Shown one piece after another: positions 3,047 to 15,586 of a stretch of DNA of 48,498 bases (its first letter is position 1; every line of letters starts with the position of its first letter). The notes beneath the pieces are model-generated. The model did no database searches, was not told the origin of the DNA, and saw only the letters and a program-made list of their open reading frames with translations. The position numbers were made by a program, and so were the translations under genes. The stretch comes from a virus: IMG/VR virus record IMGVR_UViG_3300028394_000113, positions 1 to 48,498 of that record; one strand, given 5' to 3'.

Positions 3047-5551
3047 ATGGCAACAAGTTCAATGGACAAAGGTTTGTACGCAGCTCCTCTTGGTATGGAG
3101 CAAGAGATGGATGCTCCTATTGAGATTGAAATTGAAGACCCTGAGTCAGTAAGTATTGGCATGGGTGACATAGAGATTGAGCTTCAGCCACGTAAGCAAT
3201 CAAAGGGTAAAGATTTTGATGCCAATCTTGCTGACGAAATGGACGATGGAGATTTAGATTTACTTGGGTCTGAGTTAGTTTCTGACTTTGAAAAAGACGT
3301 AATGGATCGCAAAGATTGGATCAAAACTTATGTTGATGGCTTGAAACTGTTGGGCTTGCAGTACGAAGATCGAACAGAGCCTTGGCAAGGGGCTTGTGGA
3401 GTGTTTCACCCGATGTTGACAGAGAGCGTTGTACGTTTTCAAGCAGAGGGGATTATGGAAACATTCCCAGCAATGGGTCCAGTCAAAACAAAAGTTATTG
3501 GTGAAGAGACACGCGATACAGAAGAAGCTGCTATACGTGTACAAGATGATATGAACTATCAACTCACTGAGGTGATGACTGAGTATCGTCCTGAACATGA
3601 GAAGCTCTTGTGGTCACTACCCCTTACAGGTTCTGCGTTTAAAAAGGTCTACTATGATCCGAGTAAGGGCCGTCAGGTCGCGGTGTTTATTCCAGCAGAA
3701 GACATTGTTGTGCCGTATGGGGCAAGTAATTTGGAGACGGCAGAACGCGTAGCACACGTTATGCGTAAGACCGAGAACGAGGTCAAGAAGTTACAAGAAG
3801 CTGGGTTCTATCGTGATGTTGACTTAGGTGAACCCGGCTATGACATGGACGATATCGAGAAGCAGAAGGCCGAAGAAAGCGGCATGTCTGCTATACAAGA
3901 TGATCGCTATCGCATTCTTGAAATGCACGTTGATTTGGATTTAAAAGGGTATGAGCACAAACGCAAGGGTAAAGAAACAGGGATTGCTTTACCTTATGTA
4001 GTCTCTTTAGATAAAGCAACTAATACTATATTAGCCATTAGGAGAAATTGGTATGAAGGAGACGAACTTCACCTCAAGCGACAACACTTTGTCCACTATC
4101 AGTACATCCCCGGATTCGGGTTCTACGGGTATGGTCTTATCCATCTTATCGGGGGCTATGCCAAGTCCGCCACCATGCTCATTCGACAGTTGGTGGATGC
4201 GGGCACTTTATCAAACCTACCCGGTGGCCTCAAGTCCAGAGGACTTCGCATCAAAGGAGACGACACCCCCATCCAGCCCGGAGAGTTTAGAGACGTAGAT
4301 GTCCCAAGCGGATCAATCAGAGACAACATATTACCGTTGCCATACAAAGAGCCGAGTCAGGTTCTGTTTGCTCTATTCCAAAACATCGTAGAAGAAGGTC
4401 GCTCGTTTGCTTCGTCGGGCGATATGAACGTGTCTGATATGAGTGCGCAAGCTCCAGTCGGTACAACTCTGGCGTTGTTAGAGAGACAGTTAAAAGTGAT
4501 GGGAGCAGTTCAAGCCCGCATTCACTTTACGATGAAGCAAGAGTTCAAACTTTTGAAAATTATCATTGCTGACTACACGCCTGATGAGTATGAATATGAG
4601 CCTGTAGACGGAGACCGTAAAGCCAAAAAGTCTGATTACGACATGGTGGACGTTATCCCCGTTAGTGATCCGAATGCAGCAACGATGGCGCAGAAGATTG
4701 TGCAGTACCAAGCAGTTATGCAGTTAGCTCAACAAGCTCCGCAGTTGTACGACTTGTCAATGTTGCACCGCCAAATGATTGAAGTGCTTGGCGTTAAGAA
4801 TGCAGACAAGTTAGTCAAGACAGAAGACGACGCCATACCTGTAGACCCTGTGTCTGAGAACCAAGCGTTACTTACTATGAAGCCTGTCAAAGCGTTCATT
4901 GAGCAGAACCATCAGGCCCACATCCAAGTGCATATGGCGGCGATCCAAGACCCCAAGATTCAACAGATGATGCAGATGAACCCGCAGGCGCAAGCAATCA
5001 TGGCAGCAGCTATGGCTCACATCAACGAGCATATGGCTCTGGAGTACCGCAAACAAATTGAGACGCGTATGGGCATGTCGTTACCCGGCGAAGAAAATAA
5101 CAAAAAGATCACCCCTGAACAAGCGGATGAGATTGCTGTTATGTCAGCGCAAGCAGCTCAACAAATTCTTCAGCAGAACCAACAACAAGCTCAACAACAG
5201 CAGGCTCAACAACAGATGCAGGACCCATTGGTTCAGATGCAGATGCAGGAGTTGCAGATCAAGCAGGGCGAGTTGCAGCTTAAACAGCAGAAGCAACAAA
5301 TTGATGCTGCGGCGAAAGCGGATCAGATTCGCGTTGAAGAGGCTCGTATTGAAGCCCAAAAAGAAATTGCAGCTATGCAAGTTGGTGCACAAGCCGCTGC
5401 AAATAAAGATAAAGCAGCGAGACAGCAAGAGACTGAAGGGATGCGTTTGGGCATTGACGCTGCCAAACACAAAGCGCAAATGGCTGTACAACAAGCCGCG
5501 CAAAGAGCTGCGCAAAACACCGGTAAACCACCAAATAAGGAGAATAGATGA
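3047..5551 (+). CDS. Portal protein
   Basis: This 834-residue protein would form the dodecameric ring at the head vertex through which DNA enters and leaves. It follows the large terminase gene, starts after an AAGGA site and has the segment WQGACGVFHPMLTESVV near residues 109-125, which I recall in many P22-type podovirus portals. An acidic N-terminal tail (1-85) comes first. The last 135 residues (about 700-834) are a Gln/Ala-rich probable coiled coil with runs such as QQNQQQAQQQQAQQQ, like the helical barrel of P22 portal that reaches into the head. The low-complexity end creates long false reading frames in other frames. The stop overlaps the next start (ATGA). Confidence 0.9.
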   Translation: MATSSMDKGLYAAPLGMEQEMDAPIEIEIEDPESVSIGMGDIEIELQPRKQSKGKDFDANLADEMDDGDLDLLGSELVSDFEKDVMDRKDWIKTYVDGLKLLGLQYEDRTEPWQGACGVFHPMLTESVVRFQAEGIMETFPAMGPVKTKVIGEETRDTEEAAIRVQDDMNYQLTEVMTEYRPEHEKLLWSLPLTGSAFKKVYYDPSKGRQVAVFIPAEDIVVPYGASNLETAERVAHVMRKTENEVKKLQEAGFYRDVDLGEPGYDMDDIEKQKAEESGMSAIQDDRYRILEMHVDLDLKGYEHKRKGKETGIALPYVVSLDKATNTILAIRRNWYEGDELHLKRQHFVHYQYIPGFGFYGYGLIHLIGGYAKSATMLIRQLVDAGTLSNLPGGLKSRGLRIKGDDTPIQPGEFRDVDVPSGSIRDNILPLPYKEPSQVLFALFQNIVEEGRSFASSGDMNVSDMSAQAPVGTTLALLERQLKVMGAVQARIHFTMKQEFKLLKIIIADYTPDEYEYEPVDGDRKAKKSDYDMVDVIPVSDPNAATMAQKIVQYQAVMQLAQQAPQLYDLSMLHRQMIEVLGVKNADKLVKTEDDAIPVDPVSENQALLTMKPVKAFIEQNHQAHIQVHMAAIQDPKIQQMMQMNPQAQAIMAAAMAHINEHMALEYRKQIETRMGMSLPGEENNKKITPEQADEIAVMSAQAAQQILQQNQQQAQQQQAQQQMQDPLVQMQMQELQIKQGELQLKQQKQQIDAAAKADQIRVEEARIEAQKEIAAMQVGAQAAANKDKAARQQETEGMRLGIDAAKHKAQMAVQQAAQRAAQNTGKPPNKENR

Positions 5552-5742
5552 ACTCACAAGCGCTTACATATCTCCTCAAAGAAATTGACAAGTTACGCGA
5601 GGATCAAGCTATTTTTTTAAACGGTGGTGGCGCTAAAGATTTCGCCGAGTACCGGCACGTTTGCGGAGTTATTCGGGGTCTAACTCATGCAGATCAAATT
5701 GTCAAAGACCTTGCGAAAAAACTGGAGTATTCCGATGACTGA
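5548..5742 (+). CDS. Small helical protein downstream of portal
   Basis: This gene encodes 64 residues (MNSQALTYLLKEIDKL...) predicted to be two helices with coiled-coil character and a central Gly-rich turn (NGGGAKDF). The start overlaps the portal stop in an ATGA arrangement, with AAGGAG 5 nt upstream. The end overlaps the co-chaperonin start by 8 nt. Short helical proteins at this place recur in related aquatic phages as far as I recall, but have no known function. A minor head protein or an assembly factor is possible. Confidence 0.75.
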   Translation: MNSQALTYLLKEIDKLREDQAIFLNGGGAKDFAEYRHVCGVIRGLTHADQIVKDLAKKLEYSDD

Positions 5743-6145
5743 ATTTGATGTCGCTGCGGTAGATTTGTCTGGCATTCTTAACACGAGTGCAGAGGATAAA
5801 GCGAAGCAGTTGCCTGATCCTAAAACCTTTCGACTTCTGTGCGTTGTCCCTGAAGCAATGGAAGAGTTTGCAGATAGTGAAATCGGTATTGTTAAATCAA
5901 ACCAATCCATGCACTATGAAGAAGTACTGACCCCAGTACTATTTGTAGTAAAGCTAGGCCCTGACGCCTATACAGACACTGCCCGGTTCCCTAGTGGGCC
6001 GTCGTGCAAGGAAGGTGACTTTGTCATCGTCCGTCCCAATTCAGGAACCCGCCTGAAAATTCATGGTCGTGAATTCCGCATCATTAACGATGATTCGGTT
6101 GAAGCGGTTGTGGAAGATCCCCGTGGTATTACACGAGCAGCATAA
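5735..6145 (+). CDS. GroES-like phage co-chaperonin
   Basis: The 136-residue product resembles the 10-kDa co-chaperonin that caps GroEL and is comparable to T4 gp31 or RB49 CocO in role. The C-terminal part VLFVVKLGPDAY, then GDFVIVRPNSGTRLKI, then EFRIINDDSVEAVVED follows the GroES order of beta strands, including the GD(I/F)V(I/V) turn and the final 'I...D/E I.A/V V' strand. A flexible segment at about 42-64 contains GIV (51-53), matching the GGIVLT mobile loop that binds GroEL. I chose the ATG at 5735 because GGAG lies 7 nt before it; a reading frame opening at 5687 has no such site. It lies between portal and scaffold, so its likely client is the capsid protein. An extra N-terminal extension of about 30 residues is unlike bacterial GroES. 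Confidence 0.8.
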   Translation: MTEFDVAAVDLSGILNTSAEDKAKQLPDPKTFRLLCVVPEAMEEFADSEIGIVKSNQSMHYEEVLTPVLFVVKLGPDAYTDTARFPSGPSCKEGDFVIVRPNSGTRLKIHGREFRIINDDSVEAVVEDPRGITRAA

Positions 6146-6155
6146 GGAGTAACAC

Positions 6156-7151
6156 ATGGCAACGCAAAAGTTTGAAGATACCTACGAGTTTCCCGATGAG
6201 AAAGCAGAAAAAGCTGCTGAAGAGAAATTTGAAGTTGAAATTGAAGACGACACCCCAGAGGAGGATCGTGGTCGCAAGCCCATGAAGGAACCTGTTGAGG
6301 AAGTGACTGACGAAGAGTTAGCCACTTATGACGAAAAAGTCCAAAAACGAATTAAAAAGTTTACACGTGGATACCATGATGAACGTCGCGCCAAAGAACA
6401 GGCGTTTCGTGAACGTGAAGCTGCGGAAGACTTTGCTAAACAAGTTTTTACAGAAAACAAACGCCTACAACAACAGCTTTCTACAGGTAGCGAAGCCTAC
6501 ATTGAACAGTCCAGATCCGCTGCTCAAATTGAGTTAGATGCCGCCAAAGAGAAGTACAAAAAGGCGTACGAAGCTGCTGATCCAGACACAATTGTTGCAG
6601 CGCAAGAAGCAATTGCCAGAGCTACCCTCAAGATTGACCGCGCCGAAGGTATGAGGCCAATTAAGAATGAGGAAAAAGAATATCAACCTCCCGCGCGTCA
6701 GGCAGAAGAGCCTCCACGTGTATCGCCCCGCACTCAAAAGTGGGTTGATCGCAACAACGATTGGTGGGGAATTGACGACGAAATGACTATGACTGCAATG
6801 GGAATTGACAGAAAGTTACAAAAAGAGTATGGTGCGGATTATGTAGGTACTGAAGAGTACTTCAAAACCATCGACAAAACGATGCGCAAAAGATTTCCTG
6901 AACACTTTAATAGTGACCAGAGCTACGAGGAAGACGATCCGCCTCCTAAGAAAAGGGCGTCAGAACCGGAAGAGGAGTATGAAGATACACCACGCCGTGC
7001 AACACGAATTACTTCACCTGTAGCACCTGCTACACGGAGTACACCGCCTAATCGTATTCGTTTGAAAGCATCAGAAGCCGCAACTGCGCGTCGCCTTGGG
7101 GTGCCCATCGAAGAATATGCTAGACAGGTTGCTTTACTTAGAAAAGGATAA
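6156..7151 (+). CDS. Putative capsid scaffold protein
   Basis: This gene encodes 331 residues, located between portal and capsid genes where podoviruses carry scaffold genes. The N-terminal 60 residues are strongly acidic (EVEIEDDTPEEDRGR), about 60-165 is a charged coiled coil (KKFTRGYHDERRAKEQAFRE), and the C-terminal part is basic (RRATRITSPVAPATRSTPP and KASEAATARRLGV). An acidic start, long helix and basic C-terminal capsid-binding segment are the usual layout of scaffold proteins, which are expelled or cleaved after prohead assembly. The ribosome site AAGGAG is clear. There is no sequence motif that proves the role. Confidence 0.7.
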   Translation: MATQKFEDTYEFPDEKAEKAAEEKFEVEIEDDTPEEDRGRKPMKEPVEEVTDEELATYDEKVQKRIKKFTRGYHDERRAKEQAFREREAAEDFAKQVFTENKRLQQQLSTGSEAYIEQSRSAAQIELDAAKEKYKKAYEAADPDTIVAAQEAIARATLKIDRAEGMRPIKNEEKEYQPPARQAEEPPRVSPRTQKWVDRNNDWWGIDDEMTMTAMGIDRKLQKEYGADYVGTEEYFKTIDKTMRKRFPEHFNSDQSYEEDDPPPKKRASEPEEEYEDTPRRATRITSPVAPATRSTPPNRIRLKASEAATARRLGVPIEEYARQVALLRKG

Positions 7152-8501: not shown

Positions 8502-9413
8502 ATGGCTATTTCACGCGCACAACTACTCAAGGAACTCTTGCCCGGACTGAATGCTTTGTTTGGTATGGAGTACGCTCGCTACGGCGAGCAACACAAAGAG
8601 ATCTACGAAACAGAGACCTCTGAGCGTTCTTTTGAAGAAGAAACCAAACTGTCTGGCTTCTCAGCCGCACCTGTCAAAAACGAGGGTTCTGCCATCGCTT
8701 ATGACAATGCTCAAGAGGCATGGACTACCCGCTACAACCACGAAACCATTGCTTTGGGTTTCTCAATCACTGAAGAAGCGATTGAAGATAACTTGTACGA
8801 CAGCTTGTCTGCTCGCTACACCAAAGGTCTGGCCCGTGCTATGGCGTATACCAAGCAGGTTAAAGCTGCTGCTACTCTTAACAACGGTTTCTCTGCCGCT
8901 TATGTCGGTGGTGATGGCGTTGCTTTGTTTAGCACTGCTCACCCCTTGGTTAACGGTGGAACCAACTCCAACCGTCCTTCCACTGCTGCTGACTTGAATG
9001 AAACTTCGTTGGAAAACGCTGTTATTCAAATCGCCGCATGGACAGACGAGCGTGGTTTGTTGATCGCTGCCAAGCCCAAGAAGTTGATTGTTCCCGCTGC
9101 ATTGCAGTTCGTGGCTACCCGCCTGTTGGAAACCAACCTCCGTGTTGGCACTACCGACAACGACATCAATGCTCTGAAGAACAACGGTTCTATCCCTGAA
9201 GGCTACACCATCAACAACTACTTGACCGACACAAACGGCTGGTATTTGACTACTGATGTGCCCAACGGTCTGAAACATTTTGTTCGTTCACCCCTTGCTA
9301 ACAGCATGGACGGTGACTTTGATACCGGCAACGTCCGTTACAAAGCCCGCGAGCGTTACAGCTTTGGTTGGTCTGACCCATTGGGAATGTTCGGTTCCCC
9401 CGGTTCGTCCTAA
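8502..9413 (+). CDS. Major capsid protein (Mu gpT-like)
   Basis: This 303-residue protein should be the HK97-fold shell subunit. Features matching the Mu-like gpT capsid group include the early acidic helix (YETETSERSFEEETKLSGF), an aromatic/charged strand (AWTTRYNHETIALGFSITEEAIEDN), the Ala-rich spine region and the signature LFSTAHPL near 145-152, then a C-terminal beta part (YKARERYSFGWSDPLGMFGS). The start follows AAGGAGCAACTAA. It is followed by a strong terminator, as expected for a highly expressed gene, and preceded by scaffold and portal genes. Size is normal, with no obvious N-terminal cleavage domain. Confidence 0.88.
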   Translation: MAISRAQLLKELLPGLNALFGMEYARYGEQHKEIYETETSERSFEEETKLSGFSAAPVKNEGSAIAYDNAQEAWTTRYNHETIALGFSITEEAIEDNLYDSLSARYTKGLARAMAYTKQVKAAATLNNGFSAAYVGGDGVALFSTAHPLVNGGTNSNRPSTAADLNETSLENAVIQIAAWTDERGLLIAAKPKKLIVPAALQFVATRLLETNLRVGTTDNDINALKNNGSIPEGYTINNYLTDTNGWYLTTDVPNGLKHFVRSPLANSMDGDFDTGNVRYKARERYSFGWSDPLGMFGSPGSS

Positions 9414-9548: not shown

Positions 9549-10040
9549 ATGGGATTCGCAACTCACCTTGGCCCTTGGTTGTTGGGCACTGTTAAAAACA
9601 CAACTGGCACTACCGCTGGCACTATCCGTAACATGGGCGCGACTATGGTTGCGCAATCTAAATCCATTTTGTACACGGACGTTACGGCAGGTACGGTTGC
9701 TTTTACAATCCCTGCTGGTTCGCAAATTGTAGACGCTACGTTTAATACCACTGTTGCATATGCAACAACAACTCCTACATACGCCCTTTTTGTTAACGGT
9801 GTTGCAATCAACACAGCAGCTAACGGTAGCGTATATACAAACACAGGTATTGTTAACTTGTTGCTTGGCAATAACAACGCCGCAGGCGCAGTATTGTGTA
9901 ACAACGTAGGTACAGGCGACGCAATCATTACATTTACACAGGCTAACGTCACCGCCACCTCTGGTGCTGGTTTCTTGACTGTGAGATATATTGTAAAAGA
10001 CAGCGACGGTTCTGCTAATCCAAGCAACACTCAACAATAA
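9549..10040 (+). CDS. Putative virion surface protein, beta-rich
   Basis: This 163-residue protein begins MGFATHLGPWLLGTVKNT, and is otherwise an alternation of Thr, Val, Ala and Gly strands, consistent with a compact beta-sandwich. It follows the capsid gene and its structured leader, and I recall the opening sequence from similar positions in aquatic phage genomes. A role as a head decoration or collar protein is plausible. There is one Cys (in AVLCNNVG), no signal peptide and no enzyme motif. Confidence 0.7.
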   Translation: MGFATHLGPWLLGTVKNTTGTTAGTIRNMGATMVAQSKSILYTDVTAGTVAFTIPAGSQIVDATFNTTVAYATTTPTYALFVNGVAINTAANGSVYTNTGIVNLLLGNNNAAGAVLCNNVGTGDAIITFTQANVTATSGAGFLTVRYIVKDSDGSANPSNTQQ

Positions 10041-10085: not shown

Positions 10086-10377
10086 GCAACAGACAGACGT
10101 AAAAGCAGCGCACTTAACTGCCGCTGGTTCTTTTATATTAGGACGCACACGCCTCAAAGGTATTGTGGTCAGCCCTAAAGCTTCAACAGCCGCAACATTT
10201 GAGATTCGTGATGGCAGCGCCACTGGCGCTGTGCTGTTTACGATGGACATTGCCAGTGTTACCACACCCGTGAACTTCAGCATCAATATACCCGGTGAAG
10301 GTATTTTGGCAACTACAGGACTGCACCTGACAACCAGCGTTGGTACTGTTGTGGGCATTGAAGTGTTCTATGGCTAA
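10084..10377 (+). CDS. Small beta-rich virion protein
   Basis: This 97-residue protein (MQQTDVKAAHLTAAGSF...) has regularly spaced hydrophobic strands and Gly turns, ending in VGTVVGIEVFYG, suggesting a single small beta domain. AGGAG lies ahead of the ATG. It overlaps the next gene by 8 nt (ATGGCTAA). From position, in a block of post-capsid structural genes, it is probably a minor virion protein. I know of no function for proteins of this type. Confidence 0.7.
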   Translation: MQQTDVKAAHLTAAGSFILGRTRLKGIVVSPKASTAATFEIRDGSATGAVLFTMDIASVTTPVNFSINIPGEGILATTGLHLTTSVGTVVGIEVFYG

Positions 10378-10693
10378 GTCCCCAGCATGGCAACGCAAGG
10401 AAGGGAAGAATCCGAGCGGAGGCTTAAACGCCAAAGGTCGGGCTTCCTACAACGCAGCGAATCCCGGGAAGCCGGGGCTAAAAGCTCCTCAACCCAAGGG
10501 CGGCAGCAGGCGAGACTCCTTCTGCGCCCGTATGAAAGGGATGAAAGCGAAATTGACGAGCGCAGAAACCGCAAGGGATCCAGATTCGAGGATTAACAAG
10601 AGCCTACGGGCTTGGAACTGCGCTGATGGCGGGTATGTAACGGAGGCTGATGGCTGTGCTACCAGCGGCAGAACGAAGGGTAGGTTTGTATGA
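10370..10693 (+). CDS. Small basic protein of DUF6321 type
   Basis: This 107-residue, very basic protein begins MAKSPAWQRKEGKNPSGG and continues LNAKGRASY and then SFCARMKGMKAKLTSAETARDPDSR in separate conserved blocks. I recall this pattern as the DUF6321 family of phage and virus proteins of unknown function. The start at 10370 overlaps the upstream stop by 8 nt; a TTG start 30 nt earlier is less likely. Its C-terminus (EADGCATSGRTKGRFV) resembles the RADG-GKTRG tail found on the proteins encoded just downstream. Two conserved-looking Cys (in SFCARM and WNCADG) could bind metal. Probably virion-associated or DNA-binding; unproven. Confidence 0.7.
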   Translation: MAKSPAWQRKEGKNPSGGLNAKGRASYNAANPGKPGLKAPQPKGGSRRDSFCARMKGMKAKLTSAETARDPDSRINKSLRAWNCADGGYVTEADGCATSGRTKGRFV

Positions 10694-10896
10694 CTGAGCA
10701 AACAGACACCGTAAAAAACGTGTTAGACATCGTGGCAGTATTTACCACGCTTGGCACATTTTTGGATTTACTTACTCCTGTATTCGGCTTGATCGGTGCG
10801 GTAGTTGGTGTCATGCGCATCTACGAGATGGCTACAGGTAAAGAGTTTTCCGCACTGTGGCGCAAAAAGAAAGACGACGATGCCAGCGACAAGTAA
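10690..10896 (+). CDS. Small membrane protein, possible holin-like
   Basis: This 68-residue protein has a continuous hydrophobic region at about 11-45 (VLDIVAVFTTLGTFLDLL, then VFGLIGAVVGVMRIY), which could be one long or two short membrane helices, and ends in a charged tail (WRKKKDDDASDK). Size and layout match small phage holins such as T7 gp17.5, which let endolysin through the inner membrane. It lies far from the lysis cassette at 25.8-27.5 kb, however, so it may be a virion or ejection-related membrane protein instead. The ATG overlaps the upstream stop (ATGA), and the end overlaps the next gene. Confidence 0.6.
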   Translation: MTEQTDTVKNVLDIVAVFTTLGTFLDLLTPVFGLIGAVVGVMRIYEMATGKEFSALWRKKKDDDASDK

Positions 10897-11395
10897 AAAG
10901 CAAAAAACCTTTATGGATGCTGTGGCCCATAACCCAGCGTTTGCAAAGAAAGTTGGAGTCCCCCAATCTGTGGGCAAAGACTTCAGTGAGGCTAGCAAAG
11001 GCATGAAGTTTGGTAGCGCACCTAAAACACGCGCAAATTCCCAGTCAATCAACAATCCTAAAACCAATCAAGGTGGACAGGAACTTTTTAAAAAAGGTGG
11101 AACTATGGCAACGAAAATGAACCCCGGCTTTATGGCGATGATAGCTAAGAAAAAAGCTGGAACCAGCAAAATGGCTGCTTTTGAAAAGTCTGGTAAAGAT
11201 GTTGAAATGAAGGGCGTGAAAGAAGGCTCTAAGGCTGACATGGCTATGGACAAAAAGCAAATGACGATGAAAAAAGGCGGCGCTGCTAAGAAGATGGCTT
11301 CTGGTGGTTCAGCTTCTGCTCGTGCTGATGGCGTTGCCACTAAAGGCAAAACCAAGGGCAAAATGCTCGCTAAAGGCGGCAAAGCTTACTGCTAA
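10880..11395 (+). CDS. Basic low-complexity protein with C-terminal RADG-GKTKG tail
   Basis: This 171-residue protein starts MPATSKKQKTFMDAVAHNP, a short N-terminal module reminiscent of DUF3008-like phage proteins (KKQ..FM...A..P.FAKKVG.P). The rest is rich in Lys, Met, Gly and Ala (KKGGAAKKMASGGSASARADG). The C-terminus carries ARADGVATKGKTKGKM and then AKGGKAYC, the tail shared with the next genes, and ends in Cys. An internal ATG at 11105 after a GGTGGA site could give a shorter second product. The start overlaps the upstream gene by 17 nt. The composition is protamine-like and would bind nucleic acid; function unknown. Confidence 0.65.
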   Translation: MPATSKKQKTFMDAVAHNPAFAKKVGVPQSVGKDFSEASKGMKFGSAPKTRANSQSINNPKTNQGGQELFKKGGTMATKMNPGFMAMIAKKKAGTSKMAAFEKSGKDVEMKGVKEGSKADMAMDKKQMTMKKGGAAKKMASGGSASARADGVATKGKTKGKMLAKGGKAYC

Positions 11396-11407
11396 AAGGA
11401 GCCAATC

Positions 11408-12361
11408 ATGGCAAGAGCAAAAGATTTAGCGGGTCTGGCCGCACTTGGTTTTCTTGGGTACAAGTTATCTCAGCAAGGCAAGGGTGAGGATTCAACCTCC
11501 ACTCGGGCAGCGCGTCCTGAGTCCACAGAGACTCGGGAAGAGCCACGCCGTAAGATTACCGACTACATAAAGAAGGCTCCCGAAGACGAAAATGGTAGCG
11601 TGCAAAGTGATGTGTTAAAAGCACTTACAGTCCCCAAAGCAGCGCCAAACGACAAAGCGCCTAGCCAAGGCGTTCTCCCACCAAAAACGGTAACGCCGCC
11701 TAAAGTAAAGCCAAAAGCTAAGGATCCAAACTATAGTAACGAAGGCCGTAACTCTGTTGCGCCAGCTGCTTCAATATCCGCAGACGCTATGAAAAATGCG
11801 TCTCGCGCAGCAGCGCGTAGAGCTAATTTATCCCCCATAGATCAAATCCCCGGACAAGATAGAAGCGGTCCAACAGGTGGTGAACGTGTCAGCGGCACTG
11901 AACTTAGTCGCAATCTTTCAAACACGGCGGCGGCGTTGACCCCGTTGACTGGCGGAGCATCAAAAGTTGCTACTGAATTTGCATTAGGTAACCGTGCGGC
12001 AAAAGCGGCTACAGCCGAAAAATTAAGCCCTGCTGGTCAACGCCTAAAGAACATGGAAGAAATTCGCAATGTGGCTATGCCCGGACGAAGAGATGCTGTA
12101 ATGAATCCTTTGGCCCATGCTGGCGGTCCAAAAATGATGGAAAAAATTGCAGCACAAGAAGGTCGTGCTATTGAAGCTGAAGCCCGCGTCGCAGCGGCAC
12201 AAGCAGCGCGGGAAGCAAAAACACTGAATCCAAATGCTTGGCTTGCTGGCCCAAAAGGTATGGCTGAAAACTTTCGTAGGGGTGGGGCAGTCAAGATGAC
12301 CGCTTCCCGCCGTGGTGACGGTATCGCTTCACGTGGCAAAACACGTGGCAAGATTTGTTAA
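11408..12361 (+). CDS. Basic protein with N-terminal hydrophobic helix and RGDG-GKTRG tail
   Basis: The 317-residue product starts after AAAAGGAG. Residues 5-20 (KDLAGLAALGFLGYKL) form a short hydrophobic or amphipathic helix. The middle (about 25-130) is a Pro/Lys/Glu-rich probably disordered linker. Residues 130-290 are Ala-rich helices (AAQAAREAKTLNP). The last 26 residues, GGAVKMTASRRGDGIASRG followed by KTRGKIC, carry the tail motif shared with neighbouring proteins and end in Cys, like the gene before it. I do not recognise a family. Probably a virion-associated protein of the same set. Confidence 0.65.
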   Translation: MARAKDLAGLAALGFLGYKLSQQGKGEDSTSTRAARPESTETREEPRRKITDYIKKAPEDENGSVQSDVLKALTVPKAAPNDKAPSQGVLPPKTVTPPKVKPKAKDPNYSNEGRNSVAPAASISADAMKNASRAAARRANLSPIDQIPGQDRSGPTGGERVSGTELSRNLSNTAAALTPLTGGASKVATEFALGNRAAKAATAEKLSPAGQRLKNMEEIRNVAMPGRRDAVMNPLAHAGGPKMMEKIAAQEGRAIEAEARVAAAQAAREAKTLNPNAWLAGPKGMAENFRRGGAVKMTASRRGDGIASRGKTRGKIC

Positions 12362-12370
12362 GGAAAAATC

Positions 12371-12835
12371 ATGGCAACTAAATTTCCCCCCGGACAAGAC
12401 ATGGAGAACATCTCCCCTAAAGATTTAGAGGAGGCTAAGAAGTACACCAAAGAACGTAAGGCGTACAAAGATTCTTCCAAAATTGGGTCAGATGACGACG
12501 ACGAAAATTATGGGCATGAAAGCCGTGGACAAGAAGCCGGTGTTGGAAAACGTCTTGTTTCTACAGCGTTTAAAGGTGCTGGTAAAGCGTTTGAGAAAAT
12601 ATTTGAAGCTAACGAGTATTTGGACAAAAAGTACGGCGAAAACGTCCCTGAGAATGAGCAAACAAAAGCTGGACGCCGAGCTTTGTTTGGCGAAAAGCCT
12701 GAAGTGCAAACAAAAGCCGCAAAGTATGTAACCAATACTCTGGGTAAACACTCTTATGCCAAAGGTGGCATGACAGCTTCCAGTCGTGCAGATGGTTGTT
12801 GCGTCAAAGGCAAAACTCGCGGAAAGATGGTGTAA
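12371..12835 (+). CDS. Small protein with C-terminal SSRADG-GKTRG tail
   Basis: This 154-residue protein (MATKFPPGQDMENIS...) has an acidic patch (SDDDDENYG), a helical centre (AFKGAGKAFEKIFEANEYL) and the C-terminal tail AKGGMTASSRADGCCVKG then KTRGKMV. The tail is nearly identical to that of the next gene although codons differ. It starts after AAGGA and is followed, 2 nt after its stop, by a second 154-residue gene. The body is not obviously related to the neighbours, so the tail appears to be a shared module on different bodies. Confidence 0.7.
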   Translation: MATKFPPGQDMENISPKDLEEAKKYTKERKAYKDSSKIGSDDDDENYGHESRGQEAGVGKRLVSTAFKGAGKAFEKIFEANEYLDKKYGENVPENEQTKAGRRALFGEKPEVQTKAAKYVTNTLGKHSYAKGGMTASSRADGCCVKGKTRGKMV

Positions 12836-12837
12836 TC

Positions 12838-13302
12838 ATGGCAACTAGACCAAGACGTGGGGATGATTTAACACCACTTGAAGGTGGTGGCGGCGGTGCT
12901 GGTGTTAGCGGTACTAAGTACAGCAACATGCCTTCTTTTAAGGGCAATGCCAACATAATGGATGACCTTAAAAAACTTACTAAAGACACGTCTCATCTCA
13001 AGGGCGGTGCAAAAAAAGCAACTGAACTAGCAACTGATCGCGCAATAAACAGGTTAGCTGTAAGAGCCACAGGCGCAGCAGGTGCAGGTGCAGCCGCCAA
13101 AACCCTGAGCGGCAAAGACGCTGTTGCAGATGACAAATCTAAAGAATCTGATGACTACGAAGATATGAGCGGGGCTGTTGACATAGATGTCTCAAACCCT
13201 ACTGGCGTTGCTGGCAGGGGTATGAAAAAAGGTGGTATGACTGCATCCTCACGTGCTGATGGTTGTGCTCAACGGGGTAAAACCCGTGGAACGGTGATCT
13301 GA
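12838..13302 (+). CDS. Small protein with C-terminal SSRADG-GKTRG tail
   Basis: This 154-residue protein starts at the ATG 2 nt after the previous stop (MATRPRRGDDLTPLE); an in-frame opening 42 nt upstream lies inside the previous gene and is not used here. It has a Gly run (GGGGGAG at 16-22), Ala-rich helices (RATGAAGAGAAAK), an acidic stretch (DYEDMSGAVDID) and the tail KKGGMTASSRADGCAQRG then KTRGTVI. No strong ribosome site is seen, so translation may be coupled. Its stop overlaps the next ATG (TGATG). Function unknown. Confidence 0.68.
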   Translation: MATRPRRGDDLTPLEGGGGGAGVSGTKYSNMPSFKGNANIMDDLKKLTKDTSHLKGGAKKATELATDRAINRLAVRATGAAGAGAAAKTLSGKDAVADDKSKESDDYEDMSGAVDIDVSNPTGVAGRGMKKGGMTASSRADGCAQRGKTRGTVI

Positions 13303-13580
13303 TGATGGCCTCTCGTGGCATGGGCGCAATCAACCCCAAGAAGATGCCGGGGAAAAAAGTCATCCACCGTAAAGACAAACCACAAGATGTGGATATGTAT
13401 GCGGAGGGTGGCAAGGTCAATGCTGCGGGAAATTACACCAAACCAAGTCTGCGTAAGCGGATTGTGTCTCAGGTTAAGGCAGCGGCAACACACGGTACTG
13501 GCGCAGGTCAGTGGTCGGCAAGAAAAGCGCAGTTGGTAGCTAAGAAATACAAGGCTGCTGGCGGGGGATACAGAGATTGA
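13302..13580 (+). CDS. Small basic phage protein with WSARKAQL motif
   Basis: This 92-residue protein (or 91, since a second ATG follows at once) has an N-terminal MGAINPKKMPGKKVIHRKDK segment, the GG-containing link MYAEGGKVN, then GNYTKPSLRKRIVSQVKA and GQWSARKAQLVAKKYKAAGG. I recall the NYTKP / GQWSARKAQL / GGGY pattern from small proteins of cyanophages and other aquatic phages of unknown function. It is strongly basic and helical. The start overlaps the upstream stop, and the stop overlaps the TTG start of the next gene (TTGA). Probably part of the same functional set as the RADG-tail proteins. Confidence 0.7.
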   Translation: MMASRGMGAINPKKMPGKKVIHRKDKPQDVDMYAEGGKVNAAGNYTKPSLRKRIVSQVKAAATHGTGAGQWSARKAQLVAKKYKAAGGGYRD

Positions 13581-13810
13581 AAGCGCCGCAGACTTCCCTT
13601 AAAAACTGGGGTGACCAAAAATGGAGAACCAAAAGTGGTAAAAAATCTTCTGACACAGGTGAAAGATACCTTCCTGAAGCTGCGATCAAAAGTCTTAGCC
13701 CTGCTGAGTACGCTGCGACAACACGTGCAAAACGTGCTGGCAAAGCTAAAGGGAAGCAGTTCGTAGCTCAACCCAAAACAATCGCAAAGAAAACGGCAGG
13801 ATTTAGATAA
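13577..13810 (+). CDS. Small basic protein of DUF5872 type
   Basis: This 77-residue protein is read from a TTG that overlaps the previous stop, with a GGGGGA site about 10 nt upstream. The blocks LKNWGDQKWRTKSGK, GERYLPEAAIKSLSP, YAATTRAKRAGKAKGKQF and QPKTIAKKTAGFR match, as I recall, the DUF5872 family of phage and large-virus proteins, whose function is unknown. One quarter of the residues are Lys or Arg. It ends with TAATG into the connector gene. The trio DUF6321-like, WSARKAQL-type and DUF5872-like within 3.5 kb is notable. Confidence 0.7.
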   Translation: MKAPQTSLKNWGDQKWRTKSGKKSSDTGERYLPEAAIKSLSPAEYAATTRAKRAGKAKGKQFVAQPKTIAKKTAGFR

Positions 13811-14754
13811 TGGCAAACACTTCCGGTGCAACCAGCTTTAACCTTGACCTCACTGAGCTGGTCGAGGAGGCGTTTGAACGCGCTGGTGGTGAGCTTCGCA
13901 CCGGATATGACCTGCGTACAGCTAGACGCAGTTTAAACATCATGTTTGCTGACTGGGCAAACCGTGGCATTAACCTCTGGACAATTGAGACCGGCATAAT
14001 TAATCTTGTTCAGGGGCAGAACACCTACCCGCTGCCTAACGACACCATTGATTTACTTGAGCACGTTATACGTACTGGTGGCAACGTAGCCGCAACTCAG
14101 GCTGACTTAAGTATCACTAGGATTAGTGTTTCTACCTATGCCACGATACCCAACAAGATTCAACAAGCCAGACCTATTCAGGTTTGGATTCAACGCTATA
14201 ACGGACAGACTTCTCCTGTAGCCGCTACGCTGACAACAACAATTACATCTACAAGTACATCTATTGTGCTGAATGATGTAACGGGCTTACCCGCCGCTGG
14301 GTTTGTCAAAATTGATAACGAAATTATCAATTACAGTTACATCACACAGAATACAAACGCTGTCACGGGGACTTTGTATAACTGTTTCCGTGGTCAACAA
14401 AACACAATTGCAGCGGCGCATACGGCTGCGGCTACCGTCTATTGGCAGCAAGTTCCAGCAGTCACCGTTTGGCCTACCCCAGACAATGCACAGACCTATC
14501 AATTTGTGTATTGGCGCTTGCGACGCACCCAAGACGCAGGCGGCGGTGTCAATATCATGGATGTGCCTTTCAGGTTTATCCCCTGTATGGCGGCTGGCCT
14601 GTCGTATTACATCGCCGCAAAGATTCCAACTGGCGCAGAGCGTATCCCATTCCTTAAGTCTCAGTATGACGAGGCGTGGGAGCTTGCCGCCTATGAAGAT
14701 CACGAGAAAGCTGCTTTGAGACTTGTACCCCGTCAAACCTACATTGGGAGGTAG
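13810..14754 (+). CDS. Head-tail connector / tail tubular A-like protein with inserted beta module
   Basis: This 314-residue protein has the helical N-terminal core of podovirus adaptor proteins (LTELVEEAFERAGGELRTGY, then ARRSLNIMFADWANRGINLW) and the C-terminal helix-rich part (PFLKSQYDEAWELAAYEDHE) that would dock on the portal. Residues about 139-212 look like an inserted beta domain (TSIVLNDVTGLPAAGFVKID...YNCFRGQQNTIAAAHTA). The same module pattern occurs inside the 817-residue tail protein encoded at 27519. The assignment to a gp11-of-T7 or gp4-of-P22-like adaptor is by layout. The start overlaps the previous stop (TAATG). Confidence 0.75.
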   Translation: MANTSGATSFNLDLTELVEEAFERAGGELRTGYDLRTARRSLNIMFADWANRGINLWTIETGIINLVQGQNTYPLPNDTIDLLEHVIRTGGNVAATQADLSITRISVSTYATIPNKIQQARPIQVWIQRYNGQTSPVAATLTTTITSTSTSIVLNDVTGLPAAGFVKIDNEIINYSYITQNTNAVTGTLYNCFRGQQNTIAAAHTAAATVYWQQVPAVTVWPTPDNAQTYQFVYWRLRRTQDAGGGVNIMDVPFRFIPCMAAGLSYYIAAKIPTGAERIPFLKSQYDEAWELAAYEDHEKAALRLVPRQTYIGR

Positions 14755-15155: not shown

Positions 15156-15320
15156 ATGGACACAAAGCAGGTAAAAAAGATTGCTGACACAGAGGTGAAA
15201 GCCCATGAGAAGCGTATGCACAAGATGGCAAAAGGCGGTGTTACAGGCGAAGCCATGCAGAAATATGGTCGCAACATGGCTCGTGCTATGAACCAACGCG
15301 GCAACGCAAGGGGTAAATAA
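15156..15320 (+). CDS. Very small basic protein (54 aa)
   Basis: ATG at 15156 behind TAGGAG opens 54 codons to the TAA at 15318-15320: MDTKQVKKIADTEVKAHEKR, then MHKMAKGGVTGEAMQKYGRN and MARAMNQRGNARGK. It is helical, with strong Lys/Arg/Met content and an AKGGV element like those in nearby proteins. The stop overlaps the next ATG (TAATG). The good ribosome site, tight packing and a sequence style shared with neighbours argue that it is real although short. Confidence 0.75.
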   Translation: MDTKQVKKIADTEVKAHEKRMHKMAKGGVTGEAMQKYGRNMARAMNQRGNARGK

Positions 15321-15586
15321 TGGCTAAATTCAGCGACAAACGAATGGGCAAAGAAGTTGGCAATGCCGCTGTCTACGCCAAACCGCACACCATGACTGGC
15401 AAAGCTGTGGGTATTGAACCCAACCCCGGCAAAATGCCAAACCGCAGCAAAGCCGACACAGTCAACATGAGCATTGGCGCTATCAGCAAAGCTGCTGGCG
15501 ATGAACAAGTCAAGACAACTGGTATCAAAATGCGTGGTACTGGCGCGGCTACCAAAGGCTTAATGAGTAGAGGCCCGATGGCATGA
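15320..15586 (+). CDS. Small basic virion-block protein
   Basis: This 88-residue protein (MAKFSDKRMGKEVGNAAVY...) is basic with Gly, Lys and Ala in excess and ends GIKMRGTGAATKGLMSRGPM. I recall the KTTGIKMRGTGAATKG ending from small proteins of aquatic phages. It overlaps both neighbours (TAATG at the start, ATGA at the end), so its translation is coupled to the connector gene that follows. No domain is recognised. A head-tail joining or DNA-packing role is possible. Confidence 0.7.
   Translation: MAKFSDKRMGKEVGNAAVYAKPHTMTGKAVGIEPNPGKMPNRSKADTVNMSIGAISKAAGDEQVKTTGIKMRGTGAATKGLMSRGPMA

Follow-up and report, generated by a model that had tools for sequence, protein, structure and literature searches.

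Four adjacent genes in the late region of a virus record of 48,498 bases (IMG/VR record IMGVR_UViG_3300028394_000113, analysed at its full length and hereafter called the window) encode proteins that close with one motif, GG..ASxR[AG]DGxxx[KR]GKT[KR]Gxxx (tag A). Why should a virus put the same ending on neighbouring proteins that otherwise look unrelated? To our knowledge, no function has been described for this tag. Podophages deliver proteins together with their DNA, but for the majority of environmental phages the sequence does not reveal which proteins these are. The late block of the window runs in the order TerL, portal, GroES-like, scaffold-like, two small genes, major capsid protein, cement-like, DUF6321 protein and the four tagged proteins, which are followed by two small basic proteins, the adaptor and the tail genes; the scaffold-like gene occupies 6156-7151. 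The features referred to below are:

3047..5551, + strand: portal protein (phrog_1216, E 2e-29), the basis of the portal tree
8502..9413, + strand: major capsid protein (phrog_371, E 1e-22; PF25209, E 2e-14), upstream border of the slot that holds the tagged genes
9549..10040, + strand: cement-like protein, so called from its position and a by-eye similarity to the annotated cement protein of phage DSL-LC04
10370..10693, + strand: 107-aa DUF6321 protein (PF19846, E 5e-19) with tail ADGCATSGRTKGRFV, the looser tag being TEADGCATSGRTKGRFV at 10640-10690
10880..11395, + strand: 171-aa tagged protein with an N-terminal 43-aa module (phrog_16759) in common with jumbo phages; tag plus extension at 11303-11392, GGSASARADGVATKGKTKGKMLAKGGKAYC
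11408..12361, + strand: 317-aa tagged protein with a hydrophobic start and a low-complexity body; tag at 12281-12358, GGAVKMTASRRGDGIASRGKTRGKIC
12371..12835, + strand: 154-aa tagged protein; tag at 12764-12832, GGMTASSRADGCCVKGKTRGKMV
12838..13302, + strand: 154-aa tagged protein of the RRGDDLTPLEGG family; tag at 13231-13299, GGMTASSRADGCAQRGKTRGTVI
13810..14754, + strand: portal adaptor protein, from its position and its similarity to the annotated Pag-Yong1 portal-adaptor and the Pam1-type adaptor of DSL-LC04; downstream border of the slot
15320..15586, + strand: 88-aa product of a single-copy gene just past the adaptor gene, with sister tag B, KTTGIKMRGTGAATKGLMSRGPMA, at the exact C-terminus (15512-15583)

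The common C-terminal peptide that an earlier note on this DNA had described was confirmed by a six-frame scan of the window, in which the full motif occurred at four sites only, all on the + strand and all at the ends of the ORFs listed above. The looser tail reported on the protein ending at 10693 was also recovered, as a weak match to the tag HMM behind a DUF6321 body, and the equivalent tail of a relative (L208) reads ADGCATKGKTKGRFV. The sister ending RGTGAATKGLMSRGPMA on the 15320-15586 protein had been overlooked. Two parts of the earlier description needed adjustment: the tag, though almost always at the C-terminus or close to it, is not strictly terminal, as protein 10880 extends beyond it, and the label of small basic proteins fits poorly the bodies of 12371 and 12838, which are barely basic (+2 and +3). 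Searches of PHROG and Pfam with proteins 11408-12361 and 12371-12835 returned no match, and an AlphaFold2 model of protein 12838, built on a 25-sequence alignment, had a mean pLDDT of 52 with two uncertain helices.

Homologous capsid protein, portal, GroES and TerL genes in the same order, together with the portal tree, place the window in the podovirus lineage of the HTVC023P type and Planktothrix phage Pag-Yong1. Its capsid protein is 70% identical to that of Pag-Yong1, for which a cyanobacterial host is on record, and 65% to that of HTVC023P. The searched passages of the literature on HTVC023P-type podoviruses do not mention a C-terminal tag. Throughout the lineage, a GroES-like co-chaperonin gene (window 5687-6145) is retained in the head gene block. 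The C-terminal part of the 13302-13580 product (window 13412-13577; WSARKAQ..YKxxGGGY, phrog_17747) recurs in pelagiphages, roseophages, HMO-2011 and cyanophages.

Compared by blastp without their tails, the bodies of the window proteins showed no similarity below E 0.4; the full proteins matched one another through the tails, down to E 2e-9. Profile-profile comparison of two body families returned a probability of 0.3% for the bodies and 97.7% for the tails. The proteins thus show no homology along their length, and the earlier judgement that their bodies are unrelated was upheld. The same is true of the many synonymous differences noticed between tails whose residues stay the same: the six window tail pairs differed by a pS of 0.55-0.79 and a pN of 0.18-0.34. 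Over 40 within-genome tag pairs from 20 genomes, the means were 0.63 for pS and 0.15 for pN, with a pS of 0.81 expected had codons been drawn independently; pS fell below 0.2 in 3 of the 40 pairs, so a few recent copies exist. Since the pairs differ at most synonymous sites and at few non-synonymous ones, the pattern is accounted for by selection on the peptide and not by a DNA signal or a recent duplication. Selection at the peptide level therefore acts on the shared tail, as the earlier note had proposed.

To establish how widely the ending occurs, a degenerate DNA pattern for RADGxxx[KR]GKT[KR]G was run on the viral collection and matched at least 120 loci. Homologues of the window structural genes were present in 118 of the 120 loci listed, and the other two were 1-kb stretches of contigs known to belong. 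Adding the loci fetched by protein 12838 gave about 200 related viral contigs, with the strict motif in at least 381 ORFs at about 200 loci; these counts refer to contigs and not to independent viruses, because many IMG/VR contigs are incomplete and related samples contributed some of them. The scan pattern contained no stop codon, and 293 of the 381 ORFs stopped exactly three residues after GKT[KR]G; in most of the others, a stretch of 10-14 residues followed the tag. Among the listed loci, blastp clustering sorted the tagged bodies into 132 groups, an upper limit given that the sequences are of low complexity and evolve fast, and 89 cluster representatives aligned only within KKGGxVSSASxRADGIAxRGKTRGxM. 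No Pfam or PHROG family was matched by 87 of these 89 representatives. The mean charge of the tag was about +7, bodies were net positive in 84% of the clusters, and only 2 of the 132 bodies contained a strong membrane-like segment.

A sample independent of the tag was obtained by drawing 80 loci with the adaptor protein. The tag was found upstream of the adaptor in all 48 loci with at least 2.5 kb of upstream sequence, in two to five copies in 46 of them, and a tag-B type gene was present in 64 of the 64 loci with enough sequence downstream. Among the listed loci, all 225 tags lay on the strand of the adaptor, 69 of 74 fell between the capsid and adaptor genes, and tag A genes stood just upstream of the adaptor gene, at a median of about 0.9 kb. 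The earlier note had conceded that a tail restricted to one full-length family, or missing from related genomes, would amount to simple paralogy. Neither situation was encountered: the 89 representatives share the tail alone, although fast divergence may hide some kinship, and the adaptor-drawn loci carry the tag throughout. The part of its interpretation that was borne out is, accordingly, a shared peptide under selection on unrelated bodies.

Twenty tag matches were found in bacterial genomes, of which those in five contigs (L204, L206, L208, L217 and L219) were convincing and the rest chance or weak; as all five contigs come from metagenome-assembled or uncultured genomes, they give no clear prophage or host signal. 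A tblastn search of 50,697 cultured phage records with the tag A and tag B peptides and protein 12838 retrieved nothing, a negative that reflects the sensitivity of short queries, since the tag of Pag-Yong1 (UMO75986.1) was missed by it and was found by reading the equivalent slot.

Other short modules were seen in and around the slot. Residues 1-43 of protein 10880 (window 10880-11008) are about 70% identical to PHIKZ165.1 of phiKZ, and this module, common to very different phages, recurs in more than 120 phage records, nearly all of them jumbo phages. DUF6321 (window 10370-10630) is found C-terminally in PHROG families whose length varies between 99 and 928 residues, and hence behaves as another shared C-terminal module. 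In many relatives, the tag core ADGIAKKGKTEGK also appears inside a gene of 60-90 residues downstream of the adaptor (L057:5518-5721 and similar), about 43 residues before the end; the equivalent gene of the window, 15156-15317, lacks it.

On a first reading the tag seemed confined to one freshwater clade, a view that was widened when two further forms of the ending, or dialects, appeared in relatives. Tag C, ending in RGxGxARxQKx[KR]IC (in summary form RGxGxARxQKxKIC), was present among loci drawn with the DSL-LC04 capsid protein, in L340 and L347, on two proteins each, in the same slot or near the portal. Tag D, RGxGAA[IL][RK]GTKFKGVF (in summary form RGxGAAIRGTKFKGVF), belongs to a marine sister group. 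A stop-anchored pattern for tag D matched at least 120 loci; as these were chosen by the tag and its stop codon, they give an estimate neither of the frequency of D nor of its distance to the end. Among the 120 listed, 119 could be assigned to the same lineage from their homologous structural genes, the tag mostly lying beside the portal; the portal gene was contained in 89, and about a quarter encoded two or three tag D proteins with different bodies. Cultured Pelagibacter phage HTVC023P, which resembles the window in its homologous portal, capsid protein and GroES and in gene order, shows the marine dialect at the ends of gp32 and gp51, and its gp30 closes with a C-like form. All dialects fit GG, a spacer, RxxGx[AV] and a basic stretch, and most add a hydrophobic end. 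A further ending, RGCGKVM..RRKxTK (L290:9847-10041 from phage 023Pt_psg01, L364 and L372), is perhaps a fourth dialect; it sits on a VYPSAYAN-module protein that elsewhere bears the marine tag.

Tag A and tag D cargo never shared a locus, the four loci scored as having both being cases in which the single-copy tag-B gene had been scored as D. In a FastTree portal tree of 119 rows, tag A formed one branch with a support of 100, including the cultured phage Pag-Yong1 on a long branch, and the labels A, C and D required 2 changes. Dialects thus track phylogeny, and their exclusiveness does not amount to a set of independent events. One N-terminal body, that of phrog_16759, occurred with two dialects: in the window group it had tag A, in L340 and L347 tag C. 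The tag was not seen in the structural region of the close relative HTVC027P, nor was tag A in about 50 loci of the DSL-LC04 type, drawn with the capsid protein of that sister phage; this indicates that a partner protein would not need the tag, and it counts against the docking reading given below.

How, then, is the shared ending best accounted for? The ending is shared, its distance to the carboxyl terminus is nearly fixed, it persists as the bodies change, and it is the same within each virus but differs between lineages; a docking peptide with a single partner that evolves alongside it would produce this pattern. A partner in the virion is suggested by the late location of the genes, among those of the head, and by the phrog_16759 module, which also opens jumbo-phage proteins annotated as virion structural. 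Our best reading, with a probability of roughly 55%, is that the tail is a C-terminal peptide for docking and address and that a component of the virion recognises it. Several unrelated, mostly disordered late proteins would bear the tag and be captured through it by one partner protein of the assembling particle. They would then become part of the virion, with the head interior or the portal vertex as the most likely location, and could exit from there with the DNA. We infer a single shared receptor, which may be portal, scaffold, capsid or adaptor, as well as entry into the prohead and ejection. Against this reading, the tag profile had no match in the PDB (nor had the adaptor or the capsid profile), and the portion of the literature consulted held no virion proteomics for any tagged protein. 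More tentatively, and at somewhat less than even odds, the tail may constitute an address code across the clade, whereby one receptor per virus reads RxxGxAx[KR]G-x7, dialects are mutually exclusive and acquiring the tail is enough to turn a gene product into virion cargo. If so, some of the most abundant aquatic phages would carry an open, swappable set of co-delivered proteins.

The genes' neighbourhood also fits a peptide that binds adaptor or portal, with the proteins acting as aids in portal-adaptor-nozzle assembly, as plugs or as clamps on the DNA end and not as free head cargo. The proximity of tag A to the adaptor gene and of tag D to the portal gene agrees with it, as do T7 gp6.7 and gp7.3, small proteins at the portal-core and adaptor-nozzle junctions (PMC11784390). 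Gene neighbourhood is, however, weak evidence for contact, and the two to six unrelated, fast-changing bodies per genome suit interchangeable cargo better than a fixed structural role, so that we hold this explanation to be unlikely. A DNA-condensing role, in which the basic, glycine-rich ending would neutralise packaged DNA like a protamine and with no protein receptor, agrees with the charge of the tag and of most bodies, but charge neutralisation needs no invariant Asp and Thr, no near-fixed distance to the C-terminus and no mutually exclusive dialects. Of the three functions put forward in the earlier note (prohead address, DNA-condensing tail and docking peptide), the spacing, the acidic Asp and the lineage-specific dialects favour docking or address over plain condensation, which we regard as quite improbable.

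Very little weight goes to a tag directed at the host, which, once made or delivered, would bind one of its proteins, membranes or proteases. C-terminal peptides are common as recognition signals in bacteria, and hydrophobic stretches open some window-type bodies; nevertheless, a single deep portal clade, with both a cyanophage and freshwater phages among its members, keeps the tag, dialects change with the phylogeny of the viruses, and strong membrane-like segments are nearly absent. The least probable account, to our mind, is paralogy or gene conversion, with the tails as recent copies of one DNA segment or the proteins as one family whose bodies have diverged beyond recognition. It draws on the three pairs with low pS, on the mean within-genome pS below that expected for independent codons and on the low-complexity, fast-diverging bodies that make 132 clusters an upper bound on unrelated families. 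Against it, most pairs have changes at the majority of their synonymous sites, certain bodies, namely DUF6321, phrog_16759 and RRGDDLTPLEGG, are clearly separate modules, and one body occurs with two dialects.

The preferred reading of a docking and address peptide has precedents in well-studied phages. In T4, the capsid targeting sequence (CTS) of IPI, IPII and IPIII is a short peptide and the sole conserved part of highly diverse late proteins (PMC3012670, PMC7697877), and the tag is likewise a short conserved peptide on otherwise diverse proteins of one phage. The T4 sequence differs in being N-terminal, about 10 residues long and removed by the head protease, whereas the tag lies at or near the C-terminus, spans about 25 residues and has an unrelated make-up. 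As the tag is C-terminal, we do not claim membership in the CTS family; by analogy, the tag would work like it. The N-terminal signal of P1 DarB is a terminal stretch sufficient to carry a foreign protein into the phage capsid (PMC9024508), but it was described on one protein, and a tag shared by several unrelated neighbours is not reported there. T7 gp6.7 and gp7.3, small podophage virion proteins located at the portal and adaptor and ejected at infection (PMC11784390), are two fixed proteins per virion with no multi-copy tag set; the likeness would be one of analogy. DUF6321 (PF19846) and phrog_16759 resemble the tag as short modules that recur at protein ends in unrelated phages and are also found in the tag slot, but they have other sequences and a much wider phage range, and here they are bodies that bear the tag and not the tag itself. 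A docking tag would be a C-terminal counterpart of the T4 capsid targeting sequence, and its natural dialects would allow the receptor to be mapped.
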